A stretch of DNA of 32,534 nt from Bacteroidales bacterium. GTDB taxonomy: Bacteria > Bacteroidota > Bacteroidia > Bacteroidales > Bacteroidaceae. Location: assembly GCA_022784065.1 (NCBI GenBank), contig JALFUO010000053.1:1-32534 (forward strand). Direction: 5' to 3'. Position numbers and translations under genes: made by a program. Positions 361 to 10,409 of the stretch are shown piece after piece (position 1 is the stretch's first letter; the number at the start of each line of letters is the position of its first letter). The notes under the pieces are model-generated. The model was not told the origin of the DNA. It saw only the letters and a list, made by a program, of their open reading frames with translations, and ran no database searches.

Positions 361-563
361 AGATAGTGCAAGGTGAGTGCAATTTTCGTGCAAGCGAGCG
401 CAGAGCCGAACTTGTTCGGGCTATGCCGAGCGCAGCCGAAAATCTCAAAGCAAATTTTCGTGCAAGCGAGTGCAATAGAGCTTGCTCATATTGCCGAGCG
501 TAGCCGAAAATGTCAAGAAATAAAGCTTGCTTTAATTGCCGAGCCGCAGCCTATCTTATGCAA
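361..563. repeat. Tandem array of hairpin repeats (GCAAGCGAGCGCA family)
   Basis: Three related units follow one another. Two begin with the same 18 bases at 381-398 and 453-470 (72-bp period), and each has a left arm like GTGCAAGCGAGYGCA, a variable hairpin (for example CCGAAC/GTTCGG) and a right arm like GCCGAGCGCAGCC. The array starts at GATAGTGCAAGG and ends at GCCTATCTTATGCAAAG, so GATAG and CTATC form the outer inverted ends. Related copies lie at 10281-10409, 19796-19856 and 22578-22645. ORFs read through it are not genes. Confidence 0.7.
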
Positions 564-585
564 AGGTAAAGAAAATAAAGCAATG
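546..585. repeat. Left 40-bp direct repeat bounding the satD cassette
   Basis: The 40 bases starting GCAGCCTATCTT and ending ATAAAGCAATG recur at 2231-2270 with a single difference (A at 558 versus G at 2243). No other copy with the GGTAAAGAAAATAAAG segment was seen in the window. The pair bounds 586-2230, which holds the SatD/DUF3307 genes. Confidence 0.85.
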
Positions 586-714
586 TGCCGTGTTTTCACG
601 CTACCGGCTATGTTTTTTGTGGGGCGCATCAGGCAGTCATTTCCGCTCTGGGCGCAAAGGTAACTCCGGGATTTGACACGAAACTAAAAATGGTGGATTA
701 TTTATTATCAACTA

Positions 715-779
715 TTTTTGGTTGATTTTGAAGAATCAATCGTTTTTGGTTGATTATTGGAATAATCGTTGTACCTTTG
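715..779 (+). promoter_or_regulatory. Promoter with two dyad operator-like repeats upstream of satD-like gene
   Basis: TACCTTTG (772-779) is a good -7 box. TTG at 750-752 lies 19 nt upstream as a -33 element. Two imperfect direct repeats starting TTTTTGGTTGATT occur at 715-742 and 743-768. Each carries an inverted repeat: TTGATT/AATCAA around a six-base centre (722-739) and GATTATT-GG-AATAATC (752-767). The second overlaps the -33 region, the usual place for repressor binding. The downstream protein has a C-terminal HTH and could bind here (inference). Confidence 0.55.
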
Positions 780-804
780 TAGGCGATTGTAACTGGCAAA
801 GAAT

Positions 805-1449
805 ATGGATAAGATAAAAGGGGTTATAACAGGAGATATTATAGAGTCTTCTGCCATACAGATAAAATATCGGGACTTCTTGCTGAAGTCCATCCGGGAG
901 ATAGCCGATGAACTGTCTGTAATTGAACCGCTAAGGATAGAAATGTTCAGGGGCGACAGTTTCCAGGCGGTTATCGACAGTCCGGAAAATGCGATGAAGA
1001 TTGCGGTCCTATTGCGTGCCGGGTTGAAGGGGCATACGCCAAAGGAGTGTAAAAAGCCGTGGGATGCCCGTCTTTCCATAGGGGTGGGAACAATATCGTA
1101 CCATGCGGACAATACCGTGCTTTCAGACGGGGAAGCATTCCAATACTCGGGAAGGGAACTTGACGAAATGGGCAAGCGACGTCTTGTAGTTAAAACGAGA
1201 TGGGCGGATGTGAATGAAGAGTTGCTGGTCAGTGGGGCATTTGCAGATGAGGTTGTTTCTTCATGGAGTGTTCCGCAATCGCAGGCTGCTTATCAGGCAT
1301 TGTTATATAATATTTCCCAAAAAGAGATTGCGAAAAAATTCCAAAAGTCTGCACAGAACATAAGCAAGCTGTTGGGTGCGGCAAAAGTGAACCTTGTCCA
1401 GATGTATATCGACAGATACCATAAATTGATTTCAAACTTGATAAAATAA
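805..1449 (+). CDS. SatD family protein, cyclase-like N-terminus with C-terminal HTH
   Basis: A 214-residue protein. I recognise the SatD family (named after a gene of the Streptococcus mutans acid-tolerance sat operon; biochemical function unknown). The order of motifs resembles class III nucleotidyl cyclase/GGDEF palm folds: Asp11 in ITGDII, Asp51 in RGDSFQAVI, SIGVG at 91-95 and a GEAFQYSGREL stretch at 109-119. Two aspartates sit where metal ligands would be expected. Residues about 165-205 (SQKEIAKKFQKSAQNISKLL) look like a helix-turn-helix. No signal peptide or membrane segment is visible, so it is cytosolic. The start is ATG 805, 25 nt after the -7 box. It sits five nt before the DUF3307 gene, so the two are cotranscribed. 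Base composition is AT-richer than the flanking chromosome. The cyclase resemblance is my reading and is unproven. Confidence 0.75.
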   Translation: MDKIKGVITGDIIESSAIQIKYRDFLLKSIREIADELSVIEPLRIEMFRGDSFQAVIDSPENAMKIAVLLRAGLKGHTPKECKKPWDARLSIGVGTISYHADNTVLSDGEAFQYSGRELDEMGKRRLVVKTRWADVNEELLVSGAFADEVVSSWSVPQSQAAYQALLYNISQKEIAKKFQKSAQNISKLLGAAKVNLVQMYIDRYHKLISNLIK

Positions 1450-1454
1450 AAACG

Positions 1455-2171
1455 ATGGTTATATTGCTGAGGCTTTTATTTGCTCATATCCTTTCCGACT
1501 TCTTCTTTCAGAGCGACAAAATATGTGAGGGAAAACAGGGCCAGACAAATAGGAAGCACGTTTACCAACTGCTACATAGCTTCATCCATGCTTCTATGGC
1601 ATATCTATTTGTCGGGGACTGGAGCAACTGGATTATCCCGTCGGTTATTTTCATATCCCACTTACTGATGGATTACGTAAAGGTCGAGTACATGAAGAAG
1701 AATGCCGCTTCGTTCCTCATAGACCAGTTTGTCCATATAATCGTCATCGTTGTCTTATGGTTATCACTATCTGACCATGGCGAGAATTTCTGCCAAGAGC
1801 TTTTCAGTACAGAATGGAACAGCCTGAACATCTGGGCGGTTGTCATTGCTTACTTACTGGTGCTAAAACCTACGTCCGTATTTTTGAACCTCTTCATAAA
1901 AAGATGGTCACCTTCGGGAACAGCTGGGAAAAGCCTACCGAATGCCGGAAAATGGATCGGGTATTTTGAACGTATCCTTATATTGACCTTAATTTTGACT
2001 GGTAATGCCGAAGGCATAGGATTCTTATTGGCGGCAAAATCTATTTTCCGTTTTGGGGAATTAAACAAGGCACAAGAAATTAAAACTACGGAATACGTGC
2101 TGATAGGTACATTCGCAAGTTTTACAATAGCGATTCTTATAGGCTTTGGAGTAGTACAGATTATAAATTAG
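1455..2171 (+). CDS. DUF3307 family integral membrane protein
   Basis: 238 residues with about six hydrophobic segments, starting directly in a membrane helix (MVILLRLLFAHILSDFFFQ). It fits DUF3307, a family without known function. His and Asp residues recur at membrane edges: HILSD (11-15), LLHSFIH, SHLLMDYVK, DQFVHI. This pattern recalls metal-dependent membrane hydrolases of the YdjM type, but that is inference. It follows the SatD-like gene by five bases and precedes a strong terminator, so the two make a self-contained operon. A cytosolic cyclase-like protein paired with a multi-pass membrane protein suggests a sensor/effector or signal/membrane-effector pair. Composition is AT-rich like its partner. 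Confidence 0.75.
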   Translation: MVILLRLLFAHILSDFFFQSDKICEGKQGQTNRKHVYQLLHSFIHASMAYLFVGDWSNWIIPSVIFISHLLMDYVKVEYMKKNAASFLIDQFVHIIVIVVLWLSLSDHGENFCQELFSTEWNSLNIWAVVIAYLLVLKPTSVFLNLFIKRWSPSGTAGKSLPNAGKWIGYFERILILTLILTGNAEGIGFLLAAKSIFRFGELNKAQEIKTTEYVLIGTFASFTIAILIGFGVVQIIN

Positions 2172-2178
2172 GATAAAT

Positions 2179-2230
2179 CAATCGGGCAAGAACTTTATAA
2201 GGATAGAGTTTTTGCCCGATTGTTTTTTTT
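2179..2230 (+). terminator. Rho-independent terminator of satD-DUF3307 operon
   Basis: CAATCGGGCAA (2179-2189) pairs perfectly with TTGCCCGATTG (2212-2222), followed by eight T residues (2223-2230). The right-hand 40-bp direct repeat begins at the very next base. Confidence 0.9.
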
Positions 2231-2270
2231 GCAGCCTATCTTGTGCAAAGGTAAAGAAAATAAAGCAATG
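2231..2270. repeat. Right 40-bp direct repeat bounding the satD cassette
   Basis: 39 of 40 bases match 546-585, in the same orientation. It abuts the terminator T-tract on its left and the lysS promoter region on its right. Confidence 0.85.
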
Positions 2271-2355: not shown

Positions 2356-4074
2356 ATGAATATCTTAGAACTCAGCGAGCAGGAAATACTCCGCCGCAAC
2401 TCCCTCGAAGAACTCAGGAATATGGGCATCAACCCCTACCCTGCCGACGAATATCCCGTTAATGCCTACGCCGAAGAAATCAAGGCCTCGTTCAACGACG
2501 ACGCCGAACCGCGCGAGGTGTGCATCGCCGGGCGACTGATGGGCCGCCGCGTGATGGGTAAGGCAAGCTTTGCTGAACTGCTCGACTCCACAGGGCGCAT
2601 CCAGGTGTACATCACCCGCGACGACATCTGCCCCGAGGAGGACAAGACATTATATAATAATGTATTCAAAAAACTGCTCGACCTCGGTGACTTCGTTGGC
2701 GTGAAAGGTTTCGTGTTCCGCACGCAAACGGGCGAGATTTCCGTACACGCACGCTCCATCACCCTCCTGGCCAAGAGCCTCAAGCCGCTCCCCGTGGTGA
2801 AGGAAAAGGACGGCGTAACGTACGACGCCTTCGACGACCCCGAACTGCGCTACCGCCAGCGCTACGTGGACCTCATCGTGAACCCCGACGTGAAGCAGAC
2901 GTTCCTCAAGCGCGCCACGGTGGTCAAGACGCTCCGCGCCGCGCTCGACGAAGCGGGCTATACGGAGGTGGAAACGCCTATCCTGCAACCCATACCCGGC
3001 GGCGCCAGCGCACGCCCCTTCATCACGCACCACAACTCGCTCGACGTGGATCTGTATCTGCGCATCGCAACGGAACTTTACCTGAAACGCCTCATCGTGG
3101 GCGGTTTCGAGGGCGTGTACGAAATCGGAAAGAACTTCCGCAACGAGGGCATGGACCGCAACCACAACCCCGAGTTCACCTGCATGGAACTCTACGTGCA
3201 GTATAAGGACTACAACTGGATGATGAGTTTTACCGAGCAACTGCTCGAGCGCATCTGCATCGCCGTGAACGGCAAGCCCGAGACGGAAATCGACGGCAAG
3301 GTGATCAGCTTCAAAGCGCCCTTCCGCCGCCTGCCTATCCTCGAAGCCATCAAGGAAAAGACGGGCTACGACCTCAACGGAAAGACAGAGGAGGAAATTC
3401 GCGCGGTGTGCAAGGCGCTCAATATGGAAATCGACGACACCATGGGCAAGGGCAAACTCATCGACGAAATCTTCGGCGAGTTCTGCGAAGGCACGTACAT
3501 TCAGCCTACCTTTATCACGGACTACCCCATCGAGATGTCGCCGCTCACAAAGAAGCACCGCTCCAACCCCGCCCTCACCGAGCGTTTCGAACTGATGGTG
3601 AACGGAAAGGAACTGGCCAACGCCTACTCCGAACTGAACGACCCGATTGACCAGGAGGAACGCTTCCAAGACCAGCTTCGCCTCTCTGAAAAGGGTGACG
3701 ACGAAGCCATGTTCATCGACCAAGACTTCCTCCGCGCCCTGCAATATGGCATGCCGCCCACATCGGGCATCGGCATCGGCATCGACCGCCTCGTGATGCT
3801 TATGACGGGACAGACGCAAATACAGGAAGTGCTCTTCTTCCCGCAGATGCGCCCTGAAAAGAAAGCGCCGCGCGACAACGCAGCCGCTTACACGGCCGTG
3901 GGCATCAGCGAGGAACTCGTGCCCGTGCTGCAAAAGGTGGGCTACTACCTCGTTTCCGACCTCAAAGACGTGAACCCGCAGCGCATACAGCAGCAAATCG
4001 GCGAAGTGATCAAGAAATACAAACTCGACATCGCCAAACCCTCCGTGCAGGACATCGAGGGCTGGAATGTGTAA
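2356..4074 (+). CDS. lysS: Lysine--tRNA ligase (class II LysRS)
   Basis: Charges tRNA-Lys with lysine using ATP, in the cytosol. 572 residues. An N-terminal OB-fold anticodon-binding domain (about 60-170, with GRLMGRRVMGKASFAELLD) precedes the class II catalytic core. Motif 2 is FRNEGMDRNHNPEFT and motif 3 is GIGIGIDRLVMLM. After the usual LysRS end (FFPQMRPEK) there is a roughly 70-residue extension (VGISEELVPVLQKVGYYLVSDL onward) that looks helical, like a helix-hairpin-helix repeat, as in other Bacteroidetes LysRS. The ATG at 2356 is chosen because the family N-terminus (MNILELSEQEILRRNSLEEL) starts there and the -7 box lies just upstream; the same frame is open further upstream. gpsA follows on the same strand. 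Confidence 0.97.
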   Translation: MNILELSEQEILRRNSLEELRNMGINPYPADEYPVNAYAEEIKASFNDDAEPREVCIAGRLMGRRVMGKASFAELLDSTGRIQVYITRDDICPEEDKTLYNNVFKKLLDLGDFVGVKGFVFRTQTGEISVHARSITLLAKSLKPLPVVKEKDGVTYDAFDDPELRYRQRYVDLIVNPDVKQTFLKRATVVKTLRAALDEAGYTEVETPILQPIPGGASARPFITHHNSLDVDLYLRIATELYLKRLIVGGFEGVYEIGKNFRNEGMDRNHNPEFTCMELYVQYKDYNWMMSFTEQLLERICIAVNGKPETEIDGKVISFKAPFRRLPILEAIKEKTGYDLNGKTEEEIRAVCKALNMEIDDTMGKGKLIDEIFGEFCEGTYIQPTFITDYPIEMSPLTKKHRSNPALTERFELMVNGKELANAYSELNDPIDQEERFQDQLRLSEKGDDEAMFIDQDFLRALQYGMPPTSGIGIGIDRLVMLMTGQTQIQEVLFFPQMRPEKKAPRDNAAAYTAVGISEELVPVLQKVGYYLVSDLKDVNPQRIQQQIGEVIKKYKLDIAKPSVQDIEGWNV

Positions 4075-5256: not shown

Positions 5257-5306
5257 GGGCCGTATGGCGGCATCGCTTTTAAGGCACTGCGCCATACGCC
5301 CTTTTT
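5257..5306 (+). terminator. Terminator after gpsA
   Basis: GGGC (5257-5260) plus GTATGGCG (5262-5269) pairs with CGCCATACGCCC (5290-5301), with one bulged C, and is followed by TTTTT (5302-5306). It shows that the frame of the next gene is not translated before ATG 5324. Confidence 0.8.
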
Positions 5307-5323
5307 GTATCTCTTTCTCGCCG

Positions 5324-6763
5324 ATGCTTTTCAATTCCTTTGAATTTTGCCTCTTTCTGCCCGTGACGTTCGCGCTCTACTGGCTGCTCCGGCGCTGGCG
5401 GCAATGGCAAAACGCCTTTCTGCTGGCAGCCAGCTACGCCTTCTACGCGATGTGGGACGTGCGCTTCCTCTGGCTCATTGCCGGCGTGTCGCTCACGGCG
5501 TGGCTGAGCGGCATGGGCATCGCCCGCTTCGGGAAAGGCAGCCGCAGGGCAAAGGGCATCGTGGCGGCGCAGGCGGCGGTGAGCCTCGGCCTGTTGTTTG
5601 CCTTCAAATATTTCAACTTTTTCGTAGATTCATTCATCAGCCTTTCCGCGTGGCTGGGCTTTTCAGCCTATCGCCCGCTCTGGCAGGCGGCGTTGCCCGT
5701 GGGCATCAGTTTCAACACGTTCCAAGCCTTGGCATACGTGATCGACGTGTATCGCGGCGAGGTAAAGGCGTGCCGCAACGCCCTCACGTTTTTCACCTTC
5801 ATCGCTTTCTTCCCGCAGCTGGTGGCAGGCCCTATCGAGCGCGCTGCACGGCTGCTGCCCTACTTCGACCGCCCGCGCCGCTTCGACTACGCCTCGGCCA
5901 CCGACGGCCTACGCCTGATGCTCTGGGGCATGGTGAAGAAAACCGTGGTGGCAGACAACTGCGCCGCCATCGTCAATGCCATCTACGCTAACCCGCAGGC
6001 CGACGGCACCGACCTCTGGGTGGCAACCATCTTCTTCGCCATTCAGATTTACGGCGACTTCTCGGGCTACTCCGATATCGCCGTGGGCTGCGGCAGGCTC
6101 TTCGGCATTCCCCTGATGCAAAACTTCCGCCTGCCCTACTTCTCGCGCAGCATCGCCGAGTTTTGGCGGCGATGGCACATATCGCTGATGTCGTGGTTTC
6201 GCGACTACATCTATATCCCCCTCGGCGGCTCGCGCCACGGGCGGCTGCGCACCATGGGCAACACGTTCATCGTGTTCCTGCTGAGCGGCCTGTGGCACGG
6301 GGCGAACTTCACCTTCGTGCTTTGGGGCGCATATCATGCCTGCCTCTTCCTGCCGCGCATTTTCCTCAAAAAGCGCACGCCGCGCAGCAGCGACACCGTG
6401 GCCGCCGACAGGCTGCTGCCCACGCTCAAAGAGGCGTGGCAGATGGGGCGCACCTTTGTGCTGGTGTGCCTCGGCTGGGTGCTATTTCGCTCGGAGGGCG
6501 TAAGTTCCGCCTGCCTGCGCCTGCAACGCATGTTCACCGACCTGCACTGGCACGTGCCCTACTGCGGCCGCCTGCCGCTCTTGCTACCCGCCTGCCTCTT
6601 GCTCGCAGAATGGTTCACGCGGCGCAGGGAACACCCGCTCGACTTGCCCGCACGCGGACCTTGGCGCAGCCGCGCCGTGCGCTACGCCATTTACTACGCC
6701 CTCATCCTTTGCGTGCTGCAATGGGGCGGCACGCCGGTGGAATTTATCTATTTCCAATTCTAA
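5324..6763 (+). CDS. MBOAT family O-acyltransferase (AlgI-like), copy 1
   Basis: A multi-pass membrane acyltransferase expected to pass acetyl groups across the inner membrane to an extracytoplasmic acceptor, as AlgI, PatA and DltB do. 479 residues with many hydrophobic helices. The family signatures FWRRWHISLMSWFRDYIYIP (His285) and GLWHGANFTF (His325, the expected catalytic histidine) are intact. The start ATG 5324 (MLFNSFEFCLFLP) is chosen because an earlier in-frame ATG lies inside the gpsA terminator. An SGNH protein follows after six bases, so the two are cotranscribed; MBOAT plus SGNH is the usual pairing for polysaccharide O-acetylation. The acceptor polymer cannot be told from the sequence. 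A second MBOAT lies at 10446. Confidence 0.93.
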   Translation: MLFNSFEFCLFLPVTFALYWLLRRWRQWQNAFLLAASYAFYAMWDVRFLWLIAGVSLTAWLSGMGIARFGKGSRRAKGIVAAQAAVSLGLLFAFKYFNFFVDSFISLSAWLGFSAYRPLWQAALPVGISFNTFQALAYVIDVYRGEVKACRNALTFFTFIAFFPQLVAGPIERAARLLPYFDRPRRFDYASATDGLRLMLWGMVKKTVVADNCAAIVNAIYANPQADGTDLWVATIFFAIQIYGDFSGYSDIAVGCGRLFGIPLMQNFRLPYFSRSIAEFWRRWHISLMSWFRDYIYIPLGGSRHGRLRTMGNTFIVFLLSGLWHGANFTFVLWGAYHACLFLPRIFLKKRTPRSSDTVAADRLLPTLKEAWQMGRTFVLVCLGWVLFRSEGVSSACLRLQRMFTDLHWHVPYCGRLPLLLPACLLLAEWFTRRREHPLDLPARGPWRSRAVRYAIYYALILCVLQWGGTPVEFIYFQF

Positions 6764-6769
6764 ACATCG

Positions 6770-7663
6770 ATGATGAAGAAATTTCTGCTCCGCACCTTCC
6801 TTTTCCTCCTGCCCCTCGCCCTGCTGCTCATGGGCGGCGAGGCGGTGTTGCGGCTGCACCCCAATGCAGCCAAGGCGAAGGACAAGGCCATGCGGCTCAC
6901 GGGCAGCATCATCGACACGCTGATACTGGGCAGTTCGCACGCCTACTACGGGCTCTGCCCCGAACTGCTCGGACGCAACGCCTACAACGCGGCGCAGGTG
7001 TCGCAGACGCTGAAATACGACGAGTTTATCCTCAACCGCTATGCCCTGCCGCGCCTGCGGGCGGTGGTGCTCACGGTATCGGATTTCAGTTTCTACGAGG
7101 AGTTGGAAGGCACGCCGAGTTGGTATCTCGCCGGCCGCTACCGCATGTATATGGGTTGCGACTACCATTCGCTTGCCAGTGCCTACGCCTGGGAGGCAGC
7201 GGCGTTTCCCGTTTTTGCAAAAAAACTGCTCGCCCTCTGCCAGCCGCCCCGAGAGCGGTGGAGCCTGCGCGGGCAAGGACTTGAATACACGCTTGAAAAC
7301 CGCGCCGCCGACTGGGACAACGGCAGCACTCGGGCAGCCGTGAACCGCTACGAAGACTTCAGCCACGGCGCGGTCAACGAGGCCCGCCTCTGCCGCATGG
7401 CCGCCCTGTGCCGAAAGCGCGGCATCAGCCTCGTGCTGGTAGCTACGCCGCTGCGGCCGTCATACCGCGCGGAGCAAAATCCGGCGCAAACGGCCGACAT
7501 GCTTCGCCGCATCGAACGTGTTGCCGCCCGCTTCCCGCAAACGGTGCGTTTCCTCGACTTCGCCTCCGACCCTGCTTTCACCGCCAACGATTTCTACGAT
7601 GCCGACCACCTTAACCGAGCCGGTGCAGCCAAGCTATCGCTGAAAGTGAAGGGGGCGATATAG
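6770..7663 (+). CDS. SGNH-fold protein, membrane-anchored, partner of MBOAT
   Basis: 297 residues. A hydrophobic N-terminus (about 5-22) after basic residues gives a signal anchor, placing the domain outside the inner membrane. The block-I motif is LILGSSHAYYG (51-61, nucleophile most likely Ser56) and the C-terminal motif is YDADHLN with Asp277 and His280, completing an SGNH triad. The GSSHA form is like the SGNH partners of AlgI/DltB-type acyltransferases, which complete acetyl transfer or trim acetyl groups. It starts six nt after the MBOAT stop. A new promoter box follows its 3' end. I infer an O-acetyltransferase or acetylesterase role on a surface polymer. Confidence 0.85.
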   Translation: MMKKFLLRTFLFLLPLALLLMGGEAVLRLHPNAAKAKDKAMRLTGSIIDTLILGSSHAYYGLCPELLGRNAYNAAQVSQTLKYDEFILNRYALPRLRAVVLTVSDFSFYEELEGTPSWYLAGRYRMYMGCDYHSLASAYAWEAAAFPVFAKKLLALCQPPRERWSLRGQGLEYTLENRAADWDNGSTRAAVNRYEDFSHGAVNEARLCRMAALCRKRGISLVLVATPLRPSYRAEQNPAQTADMLRRIERVAARFPQTVRFLDFASDPAFTANDFYDADHLNRAGAAKLSLKVKGAI

Positions 7664-7672
7664 GCAATAATA

Positions 7673-7680
7673 TAATTTTG
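7673..7680 (+). promoter_or_regulatory. Putative -7 box
   Basis: TAATTTTG matches TAnnTTTG, 28 nt before the ATG at 7709. It suggests that the small gene and the two SGNH genes after it can be transcribed separately from the first MBOAT. Confidence 0.4.
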
Positions 7681-7708
7681 ACAACAAGCCATACACAATA
7701 TTATATAT

Positions 7709-7951
7709 ATGGACTACAAAAGCATATTTTCCAAAGAAGAACTTAAAGAACTCACAGACTGGTTCAAAGAGCGGCTGGACGCCCTCCCCGAATCGCTGCA
7801 AGTAGACGACGCCACGTTCGTCAGAGACCTCCGGCAAACTGTGGAGTATTACCTGCGCCTCGTGGAACTCTACCACGACAAGCGCACCTTTTCGGGCCAG
7901 CTGTATCTCTTGGAACGCATTCGCAAGAAATTGATAGAACTCGGATTATAA
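7709..7951 (+). CDS. Small conserved-looking protein (DUF6965-like?)
   Basis: 80 residues, helical, acidic/basic mixed, no signal peptide. The pattern LKELTDWFKERLDALPESLQ, then a beta-rich turn and a second helix ending in LYLLERIRKKLIEL, reminds me of the small Bacteroidetes DUF6965 proteins; this is tentative. It is preceded by its own -7 box and followed after nine bases by an SGNH gene, so it probably belongs to the O-acetylation cluster transcript. Function unknown. Confidence 0.7.
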   Translation: MDYKSIFSKEELKELTDWFKERLDALPESLQVDDATFVRDLRQTVEYYLRLVELYHDKRTFSGQLYLLERIRKKLIELGL

Positions 7952-7960
7952 GCAGTGAAG

Positions 7961-9331
7961 ATGAAAAACCACCCTATCCGCGTAACGCTTCTCCTGCTGG
8001 CGGTCTTCGCCATTTTGCTGCTGCTGCGCCTAATGCCGCCTTTCGAGTTGGGGACGGTGGAAATCAAAAAGACCGACATTATCGCCGACATCATCAAGAC
8101 AAACGGCGAGGACGACGGCGGCGAAGCAGCTATGCTCGAAGCCCTGCGCAAGCAAAAGCCGGTATTCCGCGACTCCTGTCCGCCGGGCATGACCTGCATC
8201 GAGGACTATGCCGAGGCCGATGGGCGCGGCATGGAGCCGTTTTACCGCGCCTTGGAGCAAATCGACGAACTGAACCGCCCCGTGCGCATCGCCTACTTCG
8301 GCGACTCGTTCATCGAGGGCGACATCATCACCGACGAACTGCGCCTCCTGCTGCAAAAGCGGTTTGGCGGCTGCGGCGTGGGTTTTGTGGACATGGCCAG
8401 CCAAACGGCGGGCTTCCGCCACAGCGTGCGCGAAGAGGCTGAGGGCTGGGAGAGTTTCAGTATTGTGGACAAAGACCACTGCAACCTTACAAAACTCGGC
8501 ATTTCGCAACGCTACTTCCTGCCCCAGCCCGGCGCGCGCACCGCAATGAAAGGTGTGAAAAAATTCGGTTGCGACACCTGCCAAACCGCCACGCTCTTCC
8601 TACGAGCTGCCGCGCCCTGCGACATTCGCCTCACGCTCAACGCCTCCGACAGTCTCCTGCTCCACGCACGGGGCACGGGACAGGTGGAAGCGCTCACGGC
8701 GGAGGGCAAGATTGGCCGCGCCGAGTGGTCGTTTCCCGCCCCTGCGCCGGGTATGGTGTGCTGGGGCGTTGCGCTCGACGGCCGCAGCGGCATCACGCTC
8801 GACAACTTCTCGCTGCGCGGCAGCAGCGGCACCACCCTCACCTCCGTGCCCGAGGCCACGCTGCGCGAGATGCACAGCGTACGCCCCTACGACCTCGTAG
8901 TGCTGCAATATGGCTTGAACGTGGTGACCAAGAACGCCAAGAAGTATTCCCAATACGTGCGCAACATGAAGCACGTCATCGACTTCATCAAGCAGACCTT
9001 TCCCGAGGCGGGCATCCTGATATGCAGCGTGGGCGACCGCGAGGGCAAGGACGACAGCGGCACGCTCTGCACCATGCCGGGCATAAAGGCGATGGTGCTG
9101 AGCCAGCAGGCCATGGCCGCCGAGTCGGGCGTGGCGTTCTGGAACCTATACGAAGGCATGGGCGGCGAGGGAAGCATCAAGCGCATGGCTGACGCGAAAC
9201 CTGCCGAGGCGGGCAAGGACTATACGCACATCAACCATCGCGGCGGCCGCCGCATTGCCGGCATCTTCTATAAATCAATCATGCATGGCTTCGAGCAATA
9301 CAAAAAGCGCAAGGCTTATGACGAGGAATAG
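7961..9331 (+). CDS. SGNH/GDSL-type exported protein, copy 2
   Basis: 456 residues. An N-terminal membrane helix (VTLLLLAVFAILLLLRL) anchors it at the cell envelope. The GDSL block I is AYFGDSFIEGD with Ser116. A beta-rich insert follows (about 190-300), then LQYGLN replaces the usual GxND region, and the C-terminal block is KDYTHINHRGG with Asp420 and His423. The insert resembles a carbohydrate-binding beta sandwich, as in AlgX-like or PatB-like acetyl-handling enzymes, but that is inference. ATG 7961 is preferred over an in-frame GTG at 7955. The next SGNH gene overlaps its end by 14 nt, which indicates tight cotranscription. Confidence 0.85.
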   Translation: MKNHPIRVTLLLLAVFAILLLLRLMPPFELGTVEIKKTDIIADIIKTNGEDDGGEAAMLEALRKQKPVFRDSCPPGMTCIEDYAEADGRGMEPFYRALEQIDELNRPVRIAYFGDSFIEGDIITDELRLLLQKRFGGCGVGFVDMASQTAGFRHSVREEAEGWESFSIVDKDHCNLTKLGISQRYFLPQPGARTAMKGVKKFGCDTCQTATLFLRAAAPCDIRLTLNASDSLLLHARGTGQVEALTAEGKIGRAEWSFPAPAPGMVCWGVALDGRSGITLDNFSLRGSSGTTLTSVPEATLREMHSVRPYDLVVLQYGLNVVTKNAKKYSQYVRNMKHVIDFIKQTFPEAGILICSVGDREGKDDSGTLCTMPGIKAMVLSQQAMAAESGVAFWNLYEGMGGEGSIKRMADAKPAEAGKDYTHINHRGGRRIAGIFYKSIMHGFEQYKKRKAYDEE

Positions 9332-10307: not shown

Positions 10308-10409
10308 AACTTGTTTTAATTGCCGAGCCGCAGCCTATCTTATTCAAAGATAGTGCAAGGCGAGCGCAATAAGTTTACTTAAATTGCCGAGCCGAAGCCT
10401 ATCTTATTA
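10262..10409. repeat. GTAGGGGCGTTTTG fragment plus tandem pair of hairpin repeats
   Basis: A fragment of the GTAGGGGCG palindrome (10263-10276) is followed by two near-identical units. Each has the left arm AAAGATAGTGCAAGGCGAGC, a loop stem, and the right arm TTGCCGAGCCGMAGCCTATC (10281-10343 and 10345-10409). AAGATAG and CTATCTT form outer inverted ends. The loops differ (AAAACTTGTTTT versus AAGTTTACTTA), as expected for palindromic units whose arms are conserved. They contain the end of the third SGNH gene. Confidence 0.75.

Follow-up and report, generated by a model that had tools for sequence, protein, structure and literature searches.

The satD-like gene and the DUF3307 gene upstream of lysS in a 32,534-nucleotide stretch of Bacteroidales DNA (the window) fairly probably form an autoregulated accessory module, insertable as one piece of about 1.7 kb, in which a repressor under nucleotide control governs the output of the DUF3307 membrane protein. 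An original prediction, made from the letters of the window, had described the pair as a cassette between 40-bp direct repeats. The palindrome array before satD and the C-terminal helix-turn-helix (HTH) of SatD are additions beyond that first reading. The source assembly comprises 2.23 Mb in 103 contigs and is about 85% complete. The window begins at a contig start, so the left flank of the pair is limited to 545 bp. No study of the SatD-DUF3307 pair or of palindromes upstream of satD was found among the papers listed from the open literature, outside of which most subscription journals lie.

Linkage of the two genes was examined in 86 satD loci, namely the best 80 of 268 relatives, five plasmid loci and the window. 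The gene after satD is DUF3307, recognised by eye in the N-terminal sequences, in 80/86 loci, with spacing that ranges from a 23 nt overlap to a 13 nt gap. The gap in the window is 5 nt. DUF3307 is missing next to satD in L048, L086, L101 and L111, and two loci were not judgeable, L092 because it ends and L096 because of an N run.

Two palindromes of the same type precede satD in the window at a spacing of 28 bp, and the second includes the TTG located 19 nt ahead of TACCTTTG. PMC7366714 gives the Bacteroidota promoter consensus as TAnnTTTG at -7 and TTTG at -33. At least two palindromes of the same type were found before satD in 62/84 loci vs 1/420 dinucleotide shuffles. When 5-bp half-sites were used, a spacing of 27–30 bp was observed in 70/83 loci, in contrast to 0/83 mononucleotide shuffles and 0/78 distal control regions located 700–900 bp upstream. 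The array persists after clustering of SatD at 80% identity (43/51) and at 60% identity (23/28), with none in the shuffled sequences in either case. Among homologues of no more than 35% identity it is found in 14/17, all with a 29-bp step, and in none of the shuffled sequences. The half-sites of distant homologues differ, examples being CAAG, ATAAG and ATCTA. Recognition helices of the QNIS type occur mostly with CAAC, VSGVNQ with CAAG, QSGINQ-like helices with ATAAG and RQMVDK with GCAAC, a descriptive pairing that is uncorrected for relatedness.

The 62 palindrome loci contain TTG-N19/20-TAnnTTTG in 50 cases and the N18 form in 3, with neither in the other 9. In 38/56 array loci with such a promoter the TTG falls inside the right-hand arm of an exact 5+5 palindrome, a count that has no control. 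In the congeneric genomes G000, G029 and G052 clustered sites occur at satD only, and single pattern matches elsewhere are no commoner than those of a reversed control. These computations establish the palindrome array, its spacing and its overlap with the promoter.

The likely DNA-binding protein is SatD itself. The window protein has no match to PF16264 at E≤1, and PF16264 matches 13/26 aligned family members (window included) at E≤0.1, with a best value of 3.2e-7. At Pfam level the family name SatD in the original prediction is not supported for the window protein by itself. Its description as cyclase-like was borne out at the level of fold. The top Foldseek match of the SatD model is the adenylyl cyclase Ma1120 (E 5.3e-4, prob 1.00, template modelling scores 0.40/0.51, about 20% identity), and a SatD sequence profile matches only Ma1120 chains at E<0.01, over residues 8–95. 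The metal-binding aspartates D11 and D51 are present in 83/83 SatD proteins and align with those of Ma1120. The proteins appear to differ at the catalytic asparagine site, position 113, which is R/Q/H/K in 77/83 SatD proteins, and SatD is fused to an HTH that follows the cyclase fold. The putative transition-state arginine site is Arg117 in 70/83. Both of these positions were matched by eye, in a region that the model predicts with low confidence. The cyclase fold, the invariant metal aspartates and the HTH-like C-terminus are established by computation.

We propose that SatD binds, through its HTH, the palindromes spaced 28–29 bp in its own promoter and thereby would keep the operon low. Because the proximal palindrome holds the -33 element, binding should repress the operon. 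The cyclase-like domain may sense a nucleotide, or may make or stop making one, whereupon SatD would leave the DNA and the DUF3307 membrane protein, likely an effector, would go up. SatD and DUF3307, two families to which no biochemistry has been assigned, can now be tested jointly. SatD gains a defined DNA target in the array and a site for assays in its invariant cyclase residues, and the conserved pairing marks DUF3307 as the likely output. If nucleotide control is true, the cyclase fold would be the sensor of the repressor, tying cyclic-nucleotide systems to promoter control.

Table 1. Features of the satD-DUF3307 locus in the window
Feature	Position	Strand	Remarks
Direct repeat, left copy	546-585	+	40 nt; nt 1-24 form the end unit of a dispersed intergenic repeat
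Operator-like palindrome 1	707-726	.	ATCAACT-n6-GGTTGAT
Operator-like palindrome 2	735-754	.	ATCAATC-n6-GGTTGAT; 28 bp from palindrome 1; right arm includes -33 TTG
Predicted Bacteroidota promoter	750-779	+	TTG 750-752, 19 nt, TACCTTTG 772-779
satD-like gene	805-1449	+	214 amino acids; N-terminal class III cyclase fold, C-terminal HTH
DUF3307 membrane protein gene	1455-2171	+	238 amino acids; N-terminal DUF3307 domain and conserved C-terminal helical half
Intrinsic terminator	2179-2230	+	Hairpin 2179-2222, then T8 2223-2230
Direct repeat, right copy	2231-2270	+	40 nt; starts right after the terminator T-run
lysS	2356-4074		Downstream of right repeat

The DUF3307 protein matches PF11750 (E 6.8e-22, 78.3 bits vs a cut-off of 23), which confirms its predicted identity. 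No second Pfam domain was found in it. Its predicted structure consists of helices only, with no beta-strand (mean predicted local distance difference test score 89.7). Polar residues invariant among 38 DUF3307 sequences include H11, D15, Q19, H41, H69, D73, K76, D90, Q91 and H94, among others, and mostly lie within the predicted helices.

The open reading frames (ORFs) nearest to the pairs were scanned with PADLOC and Pfam models, with coverage of 131/140 ORFs and no matched control set. Each PADLOC model was matched by one member only, and the Pfam families are mostly ordinary among the first 25 of 70 and the first 25 of 73 listed. Neither SatD nor the DUF3307 protein has a match at E≤1 in the PADLOC-DB of 2023. 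In Bacteroidales bacterium F22 an intact pair lies directly after AbiLi/AbiLii and near SIR2-HerA, a KAP candidate and a ZorABCD set. The defence layout envisaged at first has this one locus, in a clear defence island, in its favour. The neighbour families listed for the scanned loci are mostly ordinary, and a defence role of the pair is possible judging from gene context. Three decayed satD copies are also present among the defence systems of F22 (L220, L221; contig 2825.7–2855 kb), each with palindromes and promoter, and two of them continue into a DUF3307-like remnant.

Pycsar consists of a PycC cyclase and an effector protein. The SatD pair resembles it in joining a class III cyclase-fold protein with a second protein, and the cUMP synthase 7r65 is among the fold matches of SatD. 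It differs in the C-terminal HTH and operator array of SatD and in that DUF3307 has no recognised nucleotide-binding domain. Panoptes (OptS/mCpol with OptE/2TM-beta), as described in PMC12657218 and PMC12657230, is likewise a two-gene operon in which a small nucleotide-making, polymerase-like enzyme is joined with a membrane effector. However, the SatD fold is closest to adenylyl cyclase and carries an HTH, and the all-helical DUF3307 model lacks the beta-barrel of the Panoptes effector. Like Pycsar or Panoptes, the pair might be a nucleotide-signalling immune system, in which an active cyclase or polymerase, SatD, makes a product that controls a toxic membrane effector, DUF3307, and the HTH only tunes expression. 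We regard this as unlikely, given the blank PADLOC-DB search, the single matches and mostly ordinary families listed among the scanned neighbours, the lack of a second domain or beta-strand in DUF3307 and the apparent replacement of the catalytic asparagine, as aligned by eye, in most SatD proteins.

The streptococcal sat operon forms the background to the acid-tolerance annotation of the SatD family. A stress or envelope-homeostasis module, in keeping with the acid-tolerance annotation of SatD and with DUF3307 as a membrane enzyme, would accommodate the enzyme-like invariant residues in the DUF3307 helices and the ordinary neighbour families listed. A Fusobacterium SatD protein is described as related to acid resistance in PMC10326533, but that link is an annotation there and not an experiment. 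The patchy distribution of the pair and its carriage on plasmids better match an accessory or conflict role, and the stress module appears improbable. Returning to the autoregulated module, its widest form would be an immune or stress system that spans phyla. In it a repressor with a cyclase fold, cooperative on a phased palindrome array, would respond to a nucleotide signal by derepressing a membrane effector, and the system would spread as a cassette of about 1.7 kb that has no integrase. This extension is doubtful, if slightly less so than the alternatives above.

The pair is accessory. A satD match is present in 3/58 congeneric genomes, the window's own counted, and in 0/19 of those at least 90% complete. 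A strong lysS match is present in 54/58, and the other four, several of them incomplete assemblies, have matches of at most about 30% identity. Close relatives do not all carry the pair in the same place: the two other congeners (G029 and G052, loci L034/L035) have it between mfd, recognised by its TRCF domain, and a glycosyltransferase-like gene, as judged by eye. The pair is 78% identical in DNA to the G052 copy, and lysS is 80.5% identical to that of G029. Because these values are 78% vs 80.5%, recent transfer between the window species and these congeners is not indicated by the sequences. At the family level a match (E≤0.001) was found in 25/201 genomes and 16/30 genera, many of them distant.

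Farther afield, the pair occurs in Fusobacterium and on plasmids of Klebsiella, E. coli, Enterobacter, Pseudomonas, Vibrio and others. Fusobacterium locus L222 has the identical gene order, with PF16264 (E 3.2e-14) beside PF11750 (E 7.3e-16). The window differs from such PF16264/PF11750 pairs in the missing PF16264 match, and from the Fusobacterium pair in its evenly spaced array, where Fusobacterium has one hairpin-like palindrome upstream (by eye). Some carriers are very small, among them pEC34A (L117, 3770 bp) and six Klebsiella plasmids of 3770–4424 bp. Besides the pair, pEC34A contains only rop, mobA and one small ORF.

The 40-bp direct repeats in the window are real, with 39/40 identity, and the predicted layout was upheld. 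They enclose the predicted promoter, both genes and the terminator, and the right copy starts at the first base past the T8 run. The interior is AT-richer than lysS, with a GC content of 0.429 for the pair vs 0.575 for lysS and 0.546 for the window. GC lies below that of the flanks in 57/70 related loci (median -4.4 points). Apart from satD and the DUF3307 gene, no gene of notable size is present between the repeats, and no recombinase or integrase gene was found there. Integrases make up 5/131 scanned neighbour ORFs, among the matches listed.

An ungapped direct-repeat score was used to compare the flanks of 73 pairs with those of 213 control intervals that came from the same loci and had similar geometry. 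A score of at least 19 was reached by 5/73 pairs vs 1/213 control intervals. The window repeat scores 37, and the best control interval 19. The repeats of the five flanked pairs are 40 nt (window), 36 nt (L095), 27 nt (L088), 38 nt (L047) and 22 nt (L084) long, and their sequences are all different. Exact flanking matches of at least 20 nt occur in 4/71 pairs, and the longest inverted match is 18. This comparison supports the view that the pair may have moved as a unit at some loci. At L095 the flanking repeat (about 5800–5860 and 7350–7413) is longer than the exact 36 nt, and within it is an inverted repeat, AAATTTGTGTCCA / TGGACACAAATT, that resembles the end of a small mobile element.

With up to three mismatches allowed, the 40-mer occurs at two places in the assembly, the two cassette edges, and no others. 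The first 24 nt are part of an intergenic repeat that is dispersed, often in tandem with a period of about 65–73 bp, and that occupies 13 places in the window genome at the same tolerance. The 24-nt repeat has matches in 11/58 congeneric genomes vs none for a reversed-pattern control. Because its first 24 nt are this repeat, the 40-mer is not a cassette-specific attachment (att) site. We infer that a unit of about 1.7 kb was gained 5' of lysS, leaving a 40-bp duplication where a resident intergenic repeat ends.

Several results weigh against parts of this proposal. The array lies downstream of a -7-like element in four distant loci (L207, L208, L212 and L213), which speaks against a uniform rule. 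No empty site was found among 29 congeneric lysS loci, a sample without a second genome of the same species; it could not be shown because the DNA directly 5' of lysS appears, by eye, unrelated among these loci. And 24/40 nt of the flanking repeat are dispersed in the genome, as the original prediction had allowed for the whole 40-bp sequence, with tandem arrays in relatives. The last two results would also suit a history with no insertion, in which the pair has long stood at its site and the resident repeat family gave rise to the 40-bp copies by spreading or by conversion. That history has perhaps a small chance of being correct. The complete 40-mer, including its last 16 nt, is common to only these two copies, and the right copy abuts the terminator. 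The right copy is also without the attgccgagcc-type left context that is usual for repeat members and present at the left copy; first units of some arrays, e.g. L183 at 263 and L185 at 193, likewise have none. Moreover, 55/58 congeneric genomes have no satD match and two have it elsewhere, and four other pairs are flanked, at comparable positions, by repeats of unrelated sequence. Gain of the cassette before lysS, as first predicted, is partly supported, by its accessory nature, its other site in two congeners, its AT-richness and the excess of flanking repeats over controls, but no integrase lies between the repeats.

The dispersed 65–73 bp repeat lies at 341–585 and 10330–10353 of the window, and examples from relatives are L171–L187. 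Among the copies listed, the arrays mostly end with GCAAAG(A/G)TA, the reverse of a Bacteroidota -7 element, as if they bore promoter elements. On the 3' side of lysS, at 5264–9331, the window contains ORFs that by eye resemble an MBOAT-type O-acyltransferase with SGNH/GDSL-like partners.
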